In this document: positions 48,008-55,349 of the stretch, piece after piece
Layout of the letters: every line of letters starts with the position of its first letter
Numbering within the stretch: position 1 is the first letter of the stretch
Assembly (NCBI GenBank): GCA_913055685.1
Contig: CAJXKC010000001.1
Span: forward strand, 1 to 64,000
Length of the DNA: 64,000 nucleotides
Direction: 5' to 3'
Source: an uncultured Flavobacteriales bacterium
GTDB lineage: Bacteria; Bacteroidota; Bacteroidia; Flavobacteriales; Schleiferiaceae
Made by a program: the position numbers and the translations under genes
Notes under the pieces: generated by a model
Database searches by the model: none
The model's input: the letters and a program-made list of their open reading frames with translations, nothing else
What the model was told of the DNA's origin: nothing

Positions 48008-48046
48008 CCCCGGTTCACACCCTTTTTTCCCCGGCTCACTCCCTTT
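48008..48046 (+). promoter_or_regulatory. Direct repeat, possible LytTR binding site
   Basis: CCCCGGTTCACACCCTTT (48008-48025) and CCCCGGCTCACTCCCTTT (48029-48046) agree at 16 of 18 bases with a period of 21. LytTR proteins bind two direct repeats about 21 bases apart, and this pair ends 4 bases before the -33 region of the TonB receptor promoter. The receptor operon itself encodes a LytTR regulator. Confidence 0.5.
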
Positions 48047-48049
48047 CAA

Positions 48050-48080
48050 TTTCATAAGAGTGGTCAGCATCGCACCTTTG
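48050..48080 (+). promoter_or_regulatory. Promoter of the TonB receptor operon
   Basis: TTTC (48050-48053), 19 bases, CACCTTTG (48073-48080), 20 bases before the receptor ATG. One mismatch in each box from TTTG-N19-TAnnTTTG, with exact spacing. Confidence 0.5.
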
Positions 48081-48099
48081 ACTCACTAAAACATGCAAA

Positions 48100-50490
48100 A
48101 TGAAAACACTTCGAATCGCTCTTATTGCTTTAAGCAGTATTTTAAGCATTAGCCTTTCGGCTGATGTGGAGCCCGCGGAAATCACCCAAACCATTAAAGG
48201 CAGGGTTTTAGACCAGCAATCCCAAACACCTTTACCAGGTGTTAACGTAGTCGTGCTAAGTGCAGGCCAACAATTTGGCGCTAGCACCGATTTTGACGGT
48301 TATTATAAAGTTGAAAGCGTACCCACTGGCAGGGTCGACATCAGCATAAGCTTTATAGGTTATGAAACTCGAGTATTCCCGAAAATGGAACTGCTTGGGT
48401 CCAAAGAGTTGGTGCTTAACATTAGTCTCATCGAGAAAACTGAAAAACTCGAAGAGGTGGTGGTAAAAGCGCGGGTCAATAAAACGCGGACGGCCAATGA
48501 AAGGGTTAATGTTTCGGGGCGGACCTTTAGCATTGAGGAGACCCAACGCTTTGCCGGCGCCAATAATGATGTTTCCCGGATGGCCTCGAACTTCGCCGGT
48601 GTTCAGCGCAGTAATGATGCCTCCAACGACATTGTTATTCGAGGAAACTCGCCTTTCGGCCTAATATGGCGTTTGGAAGGGATGGATATCCCGAATCCCA
48701 ACCACTTTGGTGGCATTGGTGCAACCGGAGGACCAGTAAGTATGCTAAACAATAATGTTTTGGCCAATAGCGACTTTCTTACTTCGGCCTTCCCTTCCGA
48801 TTATGGAGATGGAGTATCCGGAGTATTTGACCTACAGATGCGTAATGGCAATTATGAAAAGCATGAGTTTTTAGGGCAAATTGGCTTTAATGGACTCGAG
48901 TTTGGTGCGGAAGGACCATTAAACAAAGACTCCAAGGCCTCTTACCTTATTAATTACCGTTACTCAACTTTAGGAGTAATGTCGGCTTTGGGAGTAGATT
49001 TTGGCACCGGCACTGCCGTTCCAGAGTACCAAGACTTAAACCTTAAGCTTAACTTCCCCAGCCGCAAATACGGTAGTTTTCAAGTATTTGCATTAGGCGG
49101 AATTTCATCGATTGAATTTCTAGACAGCGAGAATGAAGAAAATGAAGACGGTGGTTTTTACAGCGATGATCAAGATTTACGTAATCAAGTAGGCTCTGGT
49201 GTTATTGGCGCAAGTCATCAATATTTCTTCAATCCTAAAACCTATTCTAAAATAAGTCTAGCCTTTAGTGGCATTCAAAACAAGACCACGGTAGACACCA
49301 TTAATAACGATGGCAGTATTATTAGTCCGGTTTACGGGCAACGTTTTATGCGCACTAACTTCCAAGTAAATGCCCTACTCAACCATAAGTTTAATGTAAA
49401 CCACGTGTTGAGAGCAGGAAGCTATATTACCTATCGAAATTTTAATCTTTTAGATTCTGCCTATTCCAACAATTGGAATGGCTTTCGTCGCATTCGTGAT
49501 ATTCAAGGGGCCAATATGCTTTACCAGCCTTATGTTAACTGGCAGTACCGTATTAACGATCAATGGGAAATGAATACCGGAGTTCATACCATGATCCTTG
49601 AAAACGATTACAACATTGAGCCTCGTTGGGGATTATCCTATCGCCCCAACCGAAAAAGCAGCCTTAATATTGGTTATGGTCTCCACAGCCAGCAAGCCCA
49701 TGAATTACTCATCTACAACCAAGAGGTATTAGCTGACGGTAGTATTTTCCGTCCCAATGAAAAACTTGGCTTAATGAAGAGTCATCATTTTGTACTCGGT
49801 TACCAAACTGGCTTTGGGCAGAACTGGAATTTTAAAGCAGAGACTTATTACCAATACATATACGATGCAATTGTAGATGTAAATCCCAATTCCTTTTCTA
49901 CCATCAATAATGGAACCTTCGACATTGTATTACCCGACACGGCACAAAATGGGGGTATTGGCTACAATTACGGAATTGACTTTACGGTCGAGAAGTATAT
50001 GGACAAAGGTTTCTATATGTTAAACACCCTCTCGATATTTCAGTCAAAATACCAAGGAAGCGATAAGGTTTGGCGTAATACCGCCTTTAATGGAAACTAC
50101 GTATTCAATGTAGTTGGAGGTAAAGAGTTTTTACTGAGTAAAAAAGACAGCGAAAGCCGAAAGACCCTAACGGTAGACGCCAAAGTGACTCTAGCTGGAG
50201 GTCAGAGGTACACCCCAATCGACCTAGCAAAATCCAGAGCAGAGGGCGAAGCGGTATACGACTTCGACAATGCCTATGGCTCGCAGTTCGACCCCTATTT
50301 TAGAGCTGATATCCGAGTGGGTTACAAAATTGCCGGATCAAGATTCACCCAAGAATGGGCATTGGATATCCAGAACGTCAGCAATCAGCAAAACCCCTTT
50401 GCGCAAGATTTTGACCCTGCCACCGGTGAAGTGGAGACCACTTATCAATTAGGTTTATTCCCCATGTTCCTTTACCGCATAACTTTTTAG
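48100..50490 (+). CDS. TonB-dependent receptor with carboxypeptidase-like domain
   Basis: 796 residues; outer-membrane receptor. Signal peptide about 1-21 (MKTLRIALIALSSILSISLSA). A carboxypeptidase-regulatory-like (CarboxypepD_reg) domain follows at about 30-115, with IKGRVLDQQSQTPLPGVNVVV and DFDGYYKVESVPTGRVDISISFIGYE. The plug begins near VVVKARVNKTRTANERV and contains VIRGNSPFGLIWRLEGMDIP. The barrel ends GLFPMFLYRITF with a C-terminal phenylalanine. The ligand is unknown; no SusD-like partner is adjacent, so it is not a classic glycan-utilisation pair. It heads an operon with three small regulators. Confidence 0.88.
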   Translation: MKTLRIALIALSSILSISLSADVEPAEITQTIKGRVLDQQSQTPLPGVNVVVLSAGQQFGASTDFDGYYKVESVPTGRVDISISFIGYETRVFPKMELLGSKELVLNISLIEKTEKLEEVVVKARVNKTRTANERVNVSGRTFSIEETQRFAGANNDVSRMASNFAGVQRSNDASNDIVIRGNSPFGLIWRLEGMDIPNPNHFGGIGATGGPVSMLNNNVLANSDFLTSAFPSDYGDGVSGVFDLQMRNGNYEKHEFLGQIGFNGLEFGAEGPLNKDSKASYLINYRYSTLGVMSALGVDFGTGTAVPEYQDLNLKLNFPSRKYGSFQVFALGGISSIEFLDSENEENEDGGFYSDDQDLRNQVGSGVIGASHQYFFNPKTYSKISLAFSGIQNKTTVDTINNDGSIISPVYGQRFMRTNFQVNALLNHKFNVNHVLRAGSYITYRNFNLLDSAYSNNWNGFRRIRDIQGANMLYQPYVNWQYRINDQWEMNTGVHTMILENDYNIEPRWGLSYRPNRKSSLNIGYGLHSQQAHELLIYNQEVLADGSIFRPNEKLGLMKSHHFVLGYQTGFGQNWNFKAETYYQYIYDAIVDVNPNSFSTINNGTFDIVLPDTAQNGGIGYNYGIDFTVEKYMDKGFYMLNTLSIFQSKYQGSDKVWRNTAFNGNYVFNVVGGKEFLLSKKDSESRKTLTVDAKVTLAGGQRYTPIDLAKSRAEGEAVYDFDNAYGSQFDPYFRADIRVGYKIAGSRFTQEWALDIQNVSNQQNPFAQDFDPATGEVETTYQLGLFPMFLYRITF

Positions 50491-50492
50491 CT

Positions 50493-50864
50493 ATGTACAT
50501 TAGTGTAACCGCTTTCAAGCCGGTGGGACTTTGGCCCAAAATTCTCTTCCAGATGCATGCGCTAACTTCTTTTTTACAAGTGAATAAGGCTCCTGGTTTA
50601 ATTAAGGCGCAGACCTTTAAGCCGGAACCGGGTATACACAGCACCCTTAGCTATTGGGAGTCCAAAGAAGCCATGCTCGCTTATCGAAACTCAGGTTCTC
50701 ATTTAAAAGCAATGAAGGCCAGTGGGAAATTAGGCAAAGGCATAAGTGCTGGTTGGGAAAGCAGTGCTGCGGAAAGCACAGAATTTGCCTACCAAAGGCT
50801 AGTATCTCTAAAAGGTAATTTACATTTAAGCGATGAATTCGAAAATCAACTGGTCGGCAGTTAA
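50493..50864 (+). CDS. Small dimeric alpha/beta-barrel protein (DUF3291/monooxygenase-like)
   Basis: 123 residues, no signal peptide. The pattern YISVTAFKPVGLWPKILFQMH, then a central HSTLSYWESKEAMLAYRNSGSHLKAMKASGKLG, is that of ferredoxin-fold dimeric alpha+beta-barrel proteins such as DUF3291 or antibiotic-biosynthesis monooxygenases. No haem or metal ligand can be named. It starts 2 bases after the receptor stop and overlaps the kinase gene by 32 bases, so translation is coupled; a role as cytoplasmic processing enzyme or sensor for the receptor's ligand is inference. Confidence 0.65.
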   Translation: MYISVTAFKPVGLWPKILFQMHALTSFLQVNKAPGLIKAQTFKPEPGIHSTLSYWESKEAMLAYRNSGSHLKAMKASGKLGKGISAGWESSAAESTEFAYQRLVSLKGNLHLSDEFENQLVGS

Positions 50865-51924
50865 AGATTACACCTTTACCAAGGGTAATTTATGGGTAAT
50901 TCTCGGCATCGGTATTTTCCCTCCAGTTTTTGGCACTTTGCAGTTTTTAAGTGGAATCGGCAATGATGAGCACACAAGCCTGCACTGGACCGCCTTCGAT
51001 GGTTTCTTAAATGTAATTTACTCCTATATCGTCACCTCTGTAATGGTATTGGGTGCCTCTGCGATTATTGCCATTTTAAACCAGCTTATTCCCTGGAAAG
51101 GAAATATTACTAAGCGCATTTTTGTAGAAGCATTTTTGGTAATTCTACTGGCAACCGCTTTTCAGAGTCTTTTACTGTATCTATTGGAAGGCACACGTAT
51201 GATTTATATCCGTCGTGAACTCACCTTTCAGGATTATTGGCAAAACATCATTTTCACCAATACGGTAACCATCATTGCCACCGCCATTTTTGAAGGAGCT
51301 TTTTTCTTTCGGAATTGGCGTGATTCTCTAATCGCCACAGAACGACTACAAAAGGAGCAAGCGATGAGTCAGGTTGCAAGCCTGCGTTCCCAAATGGACC
51401 CGCACTTTTTATTTAACAGCCTCAATGTTTTAAGCGGCCTCATAAAGCAAGACCCCAATCGGGCTGAAGCTTTTGTCAATGACTTCGCCAAAGTATACCG
51501 CTATTTACTGGAGGTTAAAGACGAAATGGTGGTCCCTTTGCGTAAAGAATTAGCTTTTGCCGAGCAGTATTTGCATTTACAGCAAACGCGTTTCCAGGAA
51601 GGCTTAGAAGTTAGCATTCAACTTGAGCCCAGTAGTTTAGATAAATACCTACCACCACTCAGTTTACAAGAAGCAATAAGCAATGCTATTAAGCACAATA
51701 GTCTTACCAAAGAGTACCCCTTAAAAATTGACCTTAAAGCCGATGAGCAGAAAATAAGCATTTGCAACAACTTCCAGCTGCGATCTCAAAAAGCAGACAG
51801 CACGGGTACCGGCTTGCAAAATATCAAGGAACGCTACCGCTTGTTAGAAGCTAATGCGCCACGCTTTGAAAGGCATGGCGAAATTTTCTTAGTTGAACTT
51901 CCTTTGCTTAGCTTAGAAGAATGA
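50833..51924 (+). CDS. LytS-type sensor histidine kinase
   Basis: 363 residues. Four predicted transmembrane helices occupy about residues 15-160 (for example NLWVILGIGIFPPVFGTLQFL). The His_kinase domain has H191 in SQMDPHFLFNSLNVLSGLI, followed by an atypical HATPase_c with SLQEAISNAIKHN and the glycine motif STGTGLQNIKERY. It pairs with the LytTR regulator whose ATG overlaps its stop (ATGA). The input is probably membrane-localised or depends on the TonB receptor encoded upstream. Confidence 0.9.
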   Translation: MNSKINWSAVKDYTFTKGNLWVILGIGIFPPVFGTLQFLSGIGNDEHTSLHWTAFDGFLNVIYSYIVTSVMVLGASAIIAILNQLIPWKGNITKRIFVEAFLVILLATAFQSLLLYLLEGTRMIYIRRELTFQDYWQNIIFTNTVTIIATAIFEGAFFFRNWRDSLIATERLQKEQAMSQVASLRSQMDPHFLFNSLNVLSGLIKQDPNRAEAFVNDFAKVYRYLLEVKDEMVVPLRKELAFAEQYLHLQQTRFQEGLEVSIQLEPSSLDKYLPPLSLQEAISNAIKHNSLTKEYPLKIDLKADEQKISICNNFQLRSQKADSTGTGLQNIKERYRLLEANAPRFERHGEIFLVELPLLSLEE

Positions 51925-52667
51925 AATTCTGGATATTAGAGGATGAGGCTTTTGCCGCCCAAGCTTTAATGGACAAGGTGAATAAGCTAAAGCCCGATTG
52001 GCTTTGTTTAGGAATATTACCTAGCCTTAAGTCGGCTCGAGCGCAATTAATTAATAGTCAGGCCGACTTTCTGTTTGTCGATATCCACCTTGGCGATGGT
52101 CATTCCTTCGAATTATTGGAGGAGCTTGATATCCAGCTTCCTTTAATTTTCACTACTGCTTACGACCAATATGCCCTAAAAGCCTTTCAGCTAAATAGCT
52201 TAGACTATTTATTAAAACCAATTCAAGAGGATGAATTGCAAAGAGCGCTTCATAAAGTAGAGCTAAGAGAGAAAGAGCAGAATAAAGATTGGTCGCAGCT
52301 TTTGGCCGATTTGAAACCCAATTATAAGGAGCGTTTTCTAGTAAGCAGCGGTGAGCGCTTACGCAGCATCAATAGCGAGTCGATTGCCTTTTTTTACGCC
52401 AGTGGAAAGCATTGCTTTCTGTGCGATGAATTGGGGCGCCAATATTTAGTGGATTTCAAATTAAAGGACTTGATCGAAAAGTTAGACCCAAAGATTTTCT
52501 TCCAAATCAATCGGCAGTTTATAGTCAATCTCAATTTTATTGAAGAGCTCCAGCCTTATAGCAAATCGAGGGTAAAAATAATCTGCAAGCCCGCCCTACC
52601 CGAAGAGGGTGTTGTGAGTGTGGAACGCTCTGGAAAATTTAAAGCTTGGCTCGAGGGCGAACTTTAA
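51921..52667 (+). CDS. LytTR-type response regulator
   Basis: 248 residues. Receiver domain 1-120 with phosphoacceptor D54 in LFVDIHLGDGHS, acidic E7/D8/E9, and K99 in YLLKP. The LytTR DNA-binding domain covers about 140-245 and contains NSESIAFFYASGKHCFLCDE and NRQFIVNLNFIEELQPYSKSRVKI. A predicted target is the direct repeat at 48008-48046 upstream of its own operon. The stop shares TTAA with the convergent small gene. Confidence 0.92.
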   Translation: MKFWILEDEAFAAQALMDKVNKLKPDWLCLGILPSLKSARAQLINSQADFLFVDIHLGDGHSFELLEELDIQLPLIFTTAYDQYALKAFQLNSLDYLLKPIQEDELQRALHKVELREKEQNKDWSQLLADLKPNYKERFLVSSGERLRSINSESIAFFYASGKHCFLCDELGRQYLVDFKLKDLIEKLDPKIFFQINRQFIVNLNFIEELQPYSKSRVKIICKPALPEEGVVSVERSGKFKAWLEGEL

Positions 52668-52873: not shown

Positions 52874-53605
52874 TTATAAACCCAAAACTTCGCGCAGTTC
52901 TGAAAACCCATTTCTGCTAACCGGTACTCGCGAACCATCCTTCAGAAGGGCCACATGATCATTCTTCCCGTAAGGATCTAAACGATCGATATGATCTACA
53001 TTTACCAAGAAGGACCGGTGCACCCTAATAAATAAGGGTTGAGGAAGGAGTTTCTCATAATAGGACAGGGTCTTTTTCTTAGCGTAAGTTCCCTTCTCAG
53101 AGACGATCTTCACATAATCGCCATCAGCTTCAATACGAATTAGTTCGGGAAAAGGAATTATCCGGATCCGCGCTCCATCCTTAACCACTAAGCGATCTTT
53201 AGGTCCGTGATCCTGGTTTTTCTGCAAGGCCGATATGGCCTCCTTCATAAACTTTGGCTGCGCCAAGAATTTGGCAATCGCCTGCCCAAAGCGTTCTTCT
53301 GAAAAAGGTTTTAGGAGATAATCCACCGCCGATGCTTCAAAGGCCTTTATGGCATATTCATCAAAGGCGGTAGTAAATATAATTGCTGGCGGATCTTCCA
53401 GTAATTCCAAAAAATCGAAACCCGTAAGCTTTGGCATTTGCACGTCCAAAAAAATAAGGTCGGGCTTTTCTTGCTGCACGCTTTTCAAGGCCGCAAAACC
53501 GTCTAAACAACGATCAATCACCTCAAAATCGGGATGCGTCTCAAGATACTCTTGTACCAAATCGGCCGCTAAGGGCTCATCATCAACTATCAGAACTTTG
53601 TACAT
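52874..53605 (-). CDS. LytTR-type response regulator
   Basis: 243 residues. Receiver domain 1-120 with DDE at 8-10, phosphoacceptor D54 in IFLDVQMPKL, and K99 in YLLKPF. LytTR DNA-binding domain about 140-243 with FPELIRIEADGDYVKIVSEKGTY and HRSFLVNVDHIDRLDPYGKND. It is encoded with the kinase at 53583 (23-base overlap) and the LiaF-like protein, forming one signalling operon distinct from the 50833-52667 pair. Targets are unknown. Confidence 0.92.
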   Translation of the reverse strand: MYKVLIVDDEPLAADLVQEYLETHPDFEVIDRCLDGFAALKSVQQEKPDLIFLDVQMPKLTGFDFLELLEDPPAIIFTTAFDEYAIKAFEASAVDYLLKPFSEERFGQAIAKFLAQPKFMKEAISALQKNQDHGPKDRLVVKDGARIRIIPFPELIRIEADGDYVKIVSEKGTYAKKKTLSYYEKLLPQPLFIRVHRSFLVNVDHIDRLDPYGKNDHVALLKDGSRVPVSRNGFSELREVLGL

Positions 53606-54638
53606 CGGCTTGGGGTATGGTTAGTTTGGCGCTAAAAACCTGATTTTTTATTTCAGTTTTCAACAAATCGGTTCTCCCGAAGATAAGGTATAAACGCCTT
53701 TGAATGGAAGGAATGCCAAAGCCGGTACCTCCCGGAGCACTGCTACCATCTTCAAAAGGATTTTTTAATTCAATTTCTAAGTTTCGCCCTTGCATCTTCA
53801 CCTTCATGCTAATCTCCAAGTCTCCTACCGTACCATAAAGGCCATATTTAATGGCATTCTCCAATAAAGGCTGAATAAGCAATGGGGGTAATTTCGCTGC
53901 TAAAGCCAACTCATCAATATCTCGTTTAACCTGTAAACGGTGACCAAAACGCAAGGTTTCCAAATCGAGGTATAGATTGAGGTGATTTAGCTCCTCTTCC
54001 AAGCTCATTAAAATACCCTCCTCCCGATTGAGGGTCCCCCGCAAGAACTCCGAAAGCTTTTGGGTCATTTGCCGCGCTTCTTTTGGTCGACTGCCAATTA
54101 AGCTATTGATGGAATTAAGGGCATTAAATAAAAAGTGAGGCTGAATTTGTTGGCGTAATTTAAAAAGCTCTGCTTCTTTAGCCATGCGTTCGGTCTCCTG
54201 CTTCCGTTGCTCCTGAGCGCTACGCTCATCCAAGCGATACCAGAGCATGCTAAAACCAATAACTCCTACCTGAATTAAATAGGCCACATTAGCTCTAAAC
54301 TCACCGGTAACTTCCATCCAGTGCATGGCTGTTTCACCCTGGTGTATTCCCGCTACCAACATATGCGAAACCTGATACCATACATAGGTAAGGCCAACCG
54401 GCAAGATTAAAGCAATTAAAACCTTAAACTTAGGGGGATTAAAGAAGGAGAAAGAATTGACCAAGCCATAGCAAATGGCACCAAGTAGGCCCCAGTGTAC
54501 CAAGGCATGAATCACTGAAAACTGCAGATCCAGTGAATCTCTATAATGCATCGAAACCACCTGTAAAGCACTGAGCAGCAATACTGCACCAATGTAATAC
54601 AGGTAGTTTCGATCTTTCAGCAAAGGGTTGCGCGCCAT
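53583..54638 (-). CDS. LytS-type sensor histidine kinase
   Basis: 351 residues. Four transmembrane helices cover about 13-30, 42-62, 72-92 and 118-133. The phosphoacceptor H168 is in LRQQIQPHFLFNALNSINSLI, and the kinase core has LIQPLLENAIKYGLYG and GGTGFGIPSIQRRL. Partner response regulator at 52874. It follows the LiaF-like gene by 18 bases; in Gram-positive bacteria LiaF inhibits the LiaS kinase, and an analogous inhibitory role is suggested here by adjacency only. Confidence 0.9.
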   Translation of the reverse strand: MARNPLLKDRNYLYYIGAVLLLSALQVVSMHYRDSLDLQFSVIHALVHWGLLGAICYGLVNSFSFFNPPKFKVLIALILPVGLTYVWYQVSHMLVAGIHQGETAMHWMEVTGEFRANVAYLIQVGVIGFSMLWYRLDERSAQEQRKQETERMAKEAELFKLRQQIQPHFLFNALNSINSLIGSRPKEARQMTQKLSEFLRGTLNREEGILMSLEEELNHLNLYLDLETLRFGHRLQVKRDIDELALAAKLPPLLIQPLLENAIKYGLYGTVGDLEISMKVKMQGRNLEIELKNPFEDGSSAPGGTGFGIPSIQRRLYLIFGRTDLLKTEIKNQVFSAKLTIPQADVQSSDS

Positions 54639-54656
54639 TTGCCTAAGTTACGCTTT

Positions 54657-55349
54657 CTAGTAATTTACGATATCTAAACCGCCAAAGACTACCGTACCAG
54701 TAATGGTAAGGATTTTATCGTCTTCGGTTACAATTTCCACTGCCGATAAGCGCTTGTCATCTACACCGCCAAAAATGGTGGTTACCTCTGGTCTTACCTC
54801 CCAATTTCTTGGGATGATCAATTTAGCGCCACCGAATAAAACGGTAACTTCTAAATGCGAATGACCACTAATATCGGCTTGCATAAGGTTAAGCTCGGTA
54901 CCGCCAAAAATGGTTACAACCTCGCCGCCTTGAAAAGACTTACTGGTAATATTTCGTTTCACTCCGTTGAATACCGAAACCGAATCCAGCTTATCTCCAG
55001 AACCACCAGCATTAATATTGATCCGTTTGGCACGAATTCGCGATTGGAAAATAATTATCAGACCTACTGTAATTACCAAGAGCGGCCAGAAGTAATCCAT
55101 CACCCGAAAGGGTATTCCAAAAACATCATCGATTAAGAACACCCCTCCAATAATCATTAAAATATAGGAGGTAGGGTTTTTAAATTTAGTATCAATACCA
55201 ATTACCGCACCGATCGCGATAAGCAACATTTCCCAGCTGAAGAGCCAATAAGGCAGCTCCAAACCAGCTCGACGCAATAACCAGACTACTCCAATGAGGA
55301 GAATTACCACCCCGGTGTAAATCGACTTATTTCTCTTTTGCGCTGTCAT
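54657..55349 (-). CDS. LiaF-like transmembrane protein
   Basis: 230 residues. Four short transmembrane helices in the N-terminal half (about 11-110; GVVILLIGVVWLLRRAGLELP is typical of LiaI/LiaF transmembrane regions, DUF5668-like). A beta-rich C-terminal domain from about 125 has VSVFNGVKRNI, FGGTELNLMQADISGH and VLFGGAKLIIPRNW, matching the cell-wall-active antibiotic response (LiaF C-terminal) domain. Glycine-rich FGG repeats recur three times, as usual for that domain. It heads the operon with the kinase and regulator and likely senses or damps envelope stress. Confidence 0.85.
   Translation of the reverse strand: MTAQKRNKSIYTGVVILLIGVVWLLRRAGLELPYWLFSWEMLLIAIGAVIGIDTKFKNPTSYILMIIGGVFLIDDVFGIPFRVMDYFWPLLVITVGLIIIFQSRIRAKRININAGGSGDKLDSVSVFNGVKRNITSKSFQGGEVVTIFGGTELNLMQADISGHSHLEVTVLFGGAKLIIPRNWEVRPEVTTIFGGVDDKRLSAVEIVTEDDKILTITGTVVFGGLDIVNY

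Follow-up and report, generated by a model that had tools for sequence, protein, structure and literature searches.

In FecA/FecR/FecI-type surface signalling, the gene for a TonB receptor is linked with regulatory genes of its own. The BtsS/BtsR and YpdA/YpdB systems of Escherichia coli each combine a LytS-type kinase with a LytTR regulator and have a transporter gene as target. Passages of PMC4847170 describe LytTR sites as typically made of repeats of 9–11 nt with 11–13 nt between them, and give the YpdB binding site as a direct repeat, GGCATTTCAT twice; BtsS is characterised in PMC10653868 as a 7-TM pyruvate receptor. For HaeS/HaeR of Porphyromonas gingivalis, passages of PMC3764172 report a regulator that binds the promoters of TonB receptor genes and has many targets, its sites lying ahead of 57 genes. 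According to Table 2 of PMC10197871, on lines of Flavobacterium johnsoniae that had coevolved with Burkholderia thailandensis, the adjacent genes FJOH_RS09515 (LytTR) and FJOH_RS09520 (histidine kinase) between them had a mutation in 5/5 lines. We found no description of a TonB receptor paired with LytS/LytTR genes in titles, the opening parts of abstracts and text passages, a body of literature that takes in few of the subscription journals; nor is the pairing described in the text consulted from PMC12914433, PMC5552118, PMC4847170, PMC10197871, PMC5395568, PMC6801697, PMC2964297, PMC3764172 and PMC10653868.

Such a pairing is present in the 64,000-nucleotide stretch of an uncultured Flavobacteriales genome analysed here (the window), where a co-directional block of four genes spans 48100–52667 (Table 1). 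The junctions are, in order, a 2-base gap between the receptor and ABM genes, a 32-base overlap between the ABM and kinase genes and an ATGA overlap between the kinase and regulator genes, exactly as the first-pass annotation had them, and the ORF coordinates bear this out. Its term "fused" holds for overlapping genes only and not as a protein fusion, since four separate proteins are encoded. Its statement that SusD and a sigma/anti-sigma pair are absent also stands: no SusD, STN, FecR or sigma factor is found among the 17 proteins scanned with Pfam (E up to 0.001) between 39152 and 63998. Sigma-70 and terminator scans had totals below those of shuffles and were given no weight; with one sigma-70-like match at 50819–50846, separate internal promoters are possible. 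No RNA family is found within the window by Rfam at gathering thresholds, and hence no known riboswitch. The gene order is more than chance: receptor, kinase and regulator follow one another in this way at 15 close-relative loci. We think it probable that the block is an autoregulated operon, in which its own LytTR protein would bind a repeat ahead of the receptor gene and activate one promoter for all four genes, giving positive feedback.

Table 1. Coordinates of the operon genes and of the candidate control elements, numbered from the first base of the window
Feature	Position	Strand	Basis
First direct half-site of candidate LytTR binding site	48010..48018	+	Conserved in relatives
Second direct half-site, 21 bp after first	48031..48039	+	Period 21 in relatives
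Candidate promoter: TTTC (48050–48053), N19, CACCTTTG (48073–48080)	48050..48080	+	Sequence; TTTG at 42 bp in relatives
TonB-dependent receptor, N-terminal CarbopepD_reg_2 domain	48100..50490	+	ORF, 796 aa; Pfam, AlphaFold/Foldseek
ABM-fold (dimeric α/β-barrel) protein, accessory	50493..50864	+	ORF, 123 aa; AlphaFold model
LytS-type histidine kinase	50833..51924	+	ORF, 363 aa; Pfam; four hydrophobic N-terminal stretches
LytTR response regulator	51921..52667	+	ORF, 248 aa; Pfam

The receptor is, by its predicted structure, a TonB-dependent outer-membrane importer, import itself being a prediction. Its own Pfam scan gives CarbopepD_reg_2 (3e-18) and CarboxypepD_reg, with no Plug and no barrel match; across the receptor family, Plug is found in 48 of 60 members and STN in none of the 60. 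The AlphaFold model (pLDDT 86) is a plugged barrel, with the plug inside the β-barrel as in TonB-dependent transporters, and its Foldseek matches are transporters of this kind. The 50 matches listed carry varied ligands at 10–14% identity and thus give no clue to the ligand, while a PDB sequence search with the receptor profile returned four short matches of N-domain type. An EVVV motif, which may be a TonB box, precedes the plug in the receptor consensus. With matches at E up to 1e-150, the family is represented in 251 of the 396 Bacteroidia genomes, and we found no ligand or regulation assigned to it. At L145 7065–12182 and L290 1090–3444, the genes that come after receptor homologues lacking LytS/LytTR resemble those of pigment or aromatic-polyketide biosynthesis, a resemblance judged by eye and, for L145 only, partly by Pfam.

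The claim that the operon holds a complete two-component system is upheld by Pfam, which finds PF06580 (4e-24) alone in the kinase and Response_reg with LytTR in the regulator, the combination that defines a LytS/LytTR pair. The phospho-accepting histidine of the kinase, H191, is invariant in 15 rows, as are D54, T78 and K99 of the regulator. No HATPase match and no 5TM-5TMR_LYT or other Pfam sensor domain is found in the kinase at E up to 0.001; LytS-type kinases do not all require a Pfam sensor domain. The four hydrophobic stretches at its N-terminus fit a signal that would be received in or near the inner membrane.

The small protein between receptor and kinase is less constant. Its AlphaFold model (pLDDT 78, from a 4-row alignment) has the ABM dimeric α/β-barrel fold; PF13826 and PF03992 match below the cut-off, and a PDB sequence search with its profile found nothing at E up to 1. 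Eleven of the 15 colinear loci carry the gene and L047, L048, L051 and L055 lack it, so it is accessory rather than core. Heme-degrading ABM proteins of the IsdG type have an Asn-Trp-His triad. In the 12-row alignment W55 and H70 are invariant and no Asn is, and, with the gene dispensable, we have not adopted heme degradation as its function, though it may still have that role.

Other genes occupy this position in relatives, at least in the chosen part of the companions that was scanned. An NQO-type flavodoxin-fold enzyme lies between receptor and kinase in L147 and L160 (by Pfam) and L277 (by similarity); in the cut-off locus L159 such an enzyme follows the receptor, and in L251 it precedes it. 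Between receptor and kinase, L133 has a ferredoxin-nitroreductase plus LysE, L123 and L242 have proteins that look hydrophobic by eye (that of L123 has no Pfam match), and some relatives have nothing. Beyond the receptor lie NAD-binding/epimerase-type genes in the linked divergent loci L057 and L059, and a beta-lactamase-family gene in the divergent locus L064. Unlinked receptors have varied companions: a nitroreductase (L137), DUF4386 with MFS (L069), FAD-binding with DUF1702 (L145) and peptidase M23 (L052). The redox theme among these genes is a weak basis, and the sole one, for our guess, which we offer with considerable doubt, that the ligand may be quinone-like: a small redox-active compound of hydrophobic or aromatic character.

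How often do receptors of this family adjoin LytS/LytTR genes? Some degree of match to the receptor is seen in 96 of 99 relatives, distant paralogues counted. Forty stretches were taken around the best matches; L021 is too short to tell, and L041/L042, one genome split over two contigs, count once. In 20 of the 38 close-relative loci the receptor stands beside LytS/LytTR: the order receptor-LytS-LytTR is found in 15 (L037–L040, L041/L042, L043–L051 and L055), LytS-LytTR lies immediately upstream on the same strand in two (L054 and L056), and the pair is divergent in three (L057, L059 and L064). The other 18 stretches, some of them short contigs, have no such pair beside the receptor. A first wide set was drawn from named genomes and took the best 80 of 580 confirmed locations, with receptors 40–73% identical; four from genomes already used and four more with too little upstream sequence were set aside. 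In the remaining 72 loci LytS is downstream in 33, upstream in 2, in neither position in 26 and cut off by the contig end in 11, so that 35 of 61 informative loci are linked. A later set of 60 loci, one per genome, was picked by us among the highest-ranking entries for the 251 matching genomes (of 396 Bacteroidia); after removal of four that repeated receptors of the first sample, the 56 loci comprise 20 linked downstream, 3 linked upstream, 30 unlinked within about 3.5 kb and 3 cut off (23 of 53 linked). Homologous receptors thus do adjoin LytS/LytTR genes, contradicting the possibility, allowed for in the first-pass annotation, that they never would. The linkage is old. Many of the family's receptors lack adjoining LytS/LytTR genes.

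These unlinked receptors bear on whether receptor and pair are neighbours by chance, with no functional link, as might be suspected from a tree of 68 receptors in which 27 lack the pair and linkage needs no fewer than 14 changes. The same shuffles that supply the comparison argue against it, giving 21.5 changes with only 1 in 500 as low, and the linkage occurs in three arrangements with a repeat of fixed spacing. Also compatible with passive neighbourhood is a count over four genomes, where 10 of the 44 LytTR genes have a CarbopepD receptor frame within 5.5 kb, with 3.8 expected. Four of these ten are the operon studied and two its neighbour pair, and in the window genome, besides that pair, one of nine LytTR genes has a CarbopepD receptor start within 4.2 kb. 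The proposition that LytTR genes generally adjoin TonB receptors is not upheld, and we consider an accidental association here highly improbable. Other receptors beside LytS/LytTR genes do occur, in L228 (colinear, with a 217-aa gene between) and in L229 and L230 (divergent); the repeat pattern described below was not found at these three.

Ahead of the receptor start are two half-sites, CCGGTTCAC and CCGGCTCAC, whose starts are 21 bp apart; being 9 nt long with a 12-nt spacer, they have the dimensions of a LytTR site. The pattern CCSRYTCAY-N12-CCSRYTCAY has a single zero-mismatch match in the window, and with up to three mismatches still only this one, at 48010 (2.4 expected by chance). Among the matches listed over ten genomes, which reach to just before G009, six are free of mismatches, one each in G000, G003, G004, G022, G033 and G072, and every one is at the receptor operon; the pair at the operon has one mismatch in G002 and two in G005 and G019.

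The spacing of this repeat was compared across loci by counting TTCA pairs at spacings from 10 to 35 in the 200 bases upstream of the receptor. In the first wide set, 20 of the 33 linked loci and 3 of the 26 unlinked ones carry pairs at 21, the next-best spacing (20) reaching 6 of 33, the TTCA core having been chosen after these upstream regions had been viewed. The RYTCA core, derived from the window clade, gives 13/33 against 2/26 (p=0.007; 0.13 loci expected in shuffles) and [CT]TCA gives 23/33 against 3/26 (p=7e-6). The later set was fetched after the cores had been fixed and so provides held-out loci: here [CT]TCA pairs at 21 are found in 7 of 20 linked and 1 of 30 unlinked loci (p=0.005), RYTCA pairs in 4/20 and 0/30 (p=0.02), and strict TTCA pairs in 3/20 and 1/30 (p=0.29). 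A consensus-free measure, the TTTG-anchored likeness of two 12-base windows, was devised after a first look at both sets. Its mean at period 21 is 6.78 of 12 in linked loci of the first wide set (23 usable), compared with 3.6–4.5 at other periods and 4.04 in unlinked loci; in the later set it is 5.65 (17 usable), compared with 3.3–4.4 and 3.64. Loci with at least 8 of 12 bases alike number 9/33 linked and 2/26 unlinked in the first wide set (p=0.09), and 6/20 and 1/30 in the later one (p=0.012). The period-21 repeat therefore marks kinase-linked receptors much more than unlinked ones, held-out loci included, and its spacing is better kept than its letters, which are weakly kept in held-out loci. 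On the receptor tree, 49 of 66 rows show either both repeat and linkage (26) or neither (23); the pair is missing from 14 of 40 linked rows and present in 3 of 26 unlinked ones. Phylogenetically independent contrasts on well-supported branches number eight, of which about four favour the association, none opposes it and the others do not decide (median p 0.125): the direction is right and the number too few.

The repeat stands at a fixed distance from a candidate promoter, which resembles the Bacteroidota promoter consensus, TTTG-N19-TAnnTTTG. In the window the TTTG is the end of CACCTTTG, and TTTC lies 19 bases before that element. From the second TCA core to the TTTG is 42 bp in 12 of the 13 window-clade loci where a pair was found (15 given), in 7 of 20 loci with the pair in the first wide set, one more being at 43, and in 3 of 3 in the later set; of three unlinked loci carrying the repeat, two also have TTTG at +42. 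The combined pattern [CT]TCA-N17-[CT]TCA-N37-39-TTTG lies beside the receptor or kinase in 16 of the 20 linked close-relative loci, 12 of which were the source of the motif, so that the fair part is 4 of 6 (present in L054, L057, L059 and L064, not in L055 or L056). It was found in none of 17 unlinked close-relative stretches with upstream sequence. In the divergent loci L057 and L059 the pattern is directed towards the kinase gene, and in L059 it falls within that gene's ORF when this is read at its longest. In these four loci the site follows the regulator into other gene orders. The wiring proposed in the first-pass annotation is supported for receptor, LytS and LytTR, with their recurrent linkage and 5' repeat and promoter pattern; the dimeric-barrel gene is not core, and sensing by the kinase of what the receptor imports is hypothetical.

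Two further loci show this geometry in other settings. In L049 (22–3180; the same region as L106 1–4141) a second LytS-LytTR-receptor module, with a receptor 26% identical, lies upstream in tandem, and the region separating its regulator from its receptor shows this repeat and promoter geometry. In G015 (L225 5654–6189) the operon is deleted between its promoter and the last third of the regulator. Receptor, ABM protein and kinase have been lost, and what is left between mfd and the second LytS/LytTR pair is the promoter pattern, a C-terminal regulator fragment of 79 aa and two other small genes.

Does the pair control this operon, or mainly other genes, with the receptor as one of several targets of a wider response? 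Half-site pairs with up to two mismatches number 168 over the ten genomes, against 94 in the reversed control, an excess that may reflect further targets, and the full pattern RYTCA-N16-RYTCA-N38-TTTG has 77 matches over 59 genomes against 25 in the reversed control, nine of them placed at the receptor operon and one at the operon relic. In the 2.96-Mb window genome, however, the full pattern occurs once, at the operon, and half-site near-matches there (7 against 5) are at about control level. We thus regard a mainly wider role as unlikely. Near-sites at paralogous receptors are also seen: in G004, a 17-of-18 half-site match (L074 5503) lies about 280 bases before the longest reading of such a receptor, without the promoter geometry; G002 has a comparable pair with one mismatch before a paralogous receptor, likewise without that geometry, and both sites run counter to a single target.

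Next to the operon and convergent to it lies another LytS/LytTR pair, accompanied by a LiaF-like membrane protein (52874–55349) and syntenic in the genus. Since LytTR proteins share a site form, the repeat might be bound by another regulator, for instance the LytTR protein of this pair (52874–53605); but across distant loci the repeat accompanies the receptor's own LytS/LytTR, which makes binding by an outside regulator rather improbable. The sign of the control is a separate matter. A negative loop, with the regulator as a repressor of the operon or the kinase working as a phosphatase when ligand is present, would be compatible with the site, whose position alone does not fix the sign; the half-sites nevertheless lie upstream of the -33 element without covering it, a usual position for an activator, and a negative loop seems to us improbable.

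For the autoregulated operon that we favour, we propose the following sequence of events. The LytTR regulator would bind the direct half-sites, 21 bp or two helical turns apart, just upstream of the -33 element, and once bound would activate a single promoter for receptor, ABM protein, kinase and regulator. The receptor would import a compound across the outer membrane in a TonB-dependent manner; the kinase, with its four membrane stretches and without a recognised sensor domain, would detect, at the inner membrane, this compound or an effect of it and would then phosphorylate the regulator, closing a positive feedback. The genes, their recurrent linkage, the repeat, its fixed distance from the promoter-like element and the one full pattern in this genome are observed in silico, and from them we infer binding, activation rather than repression, a single transcript and what is sensed: binding because LytTR sites are typically such repeats, according to passages of PMC4847170, and activation because the repeat lies upstream of -33.

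What appears to be new is the arrangement of two half-sites 21 bp apart upstream of the receptor and, 42 bp on, a Bacteroidota-type -7 element. With regulator, site and promoter predicted at exact spacing, control of the operon is directly testable. The arrangement also offers a promoter grammar for LytTR regulators in Bacteroidota and a route to the ligand through operon-induction screening, for a receptor family that is common in Bacteroidia. It is possible, though we would not expect it, that this is a general mode of TonB-receptor control in Bacteroidota: an autoregulated module of receptor, four-helix LytS and LytTR, in which the promoter has a fixed layout (half-site, 21 bp, half-site, 42 bp, -7 element), different small redox enzymes are exchanged, and the whole serves to import and sense a hydrophobic aromatic compound, quinone-like or other. 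If true, this would be a further control route beside sigma/anti-sigma and Sus-type regulators.

The operon thus shares features with several known systems. Like FecA/FecR/FecI, it links a TonB receptor gene with regulatory genes of its own, but its family has no STN in 60 members and its 17 neighbours include no FecR or sigma factor. With SusC/SusD it shares a Bacteroidota TonB receptor with an N-terminal carboxypeptidase-like domain; it differs in having no SusD among those neighbours, a receptor of 796 aa, and LytS/LytTR in place of Sus-type regulators. HaeS/HaeR is likewise a two-component system with TonB receptor genes as targets, but its targets are many, and the passages of PMC3764172 give neither a LytTR label nor a receptor in its operon. 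With BtsS/BtsR and YpdA/YpdB it shares a LytS-type kinase, a LytTR regulator and a transporter as target. The TTCA core of the YpdB direct repeat, as given in the passages cited above, is also present in the operon's repeat. The kinase has four hydrophobic stretches where BtsS is described as having seven, and pyruvate is the ligand reported for BtsS whereas none is assigned here. Finally, the present target, in contrast to those of the two E. coli systems, is an outer-membrane TonB receptor encoded in the same operon.
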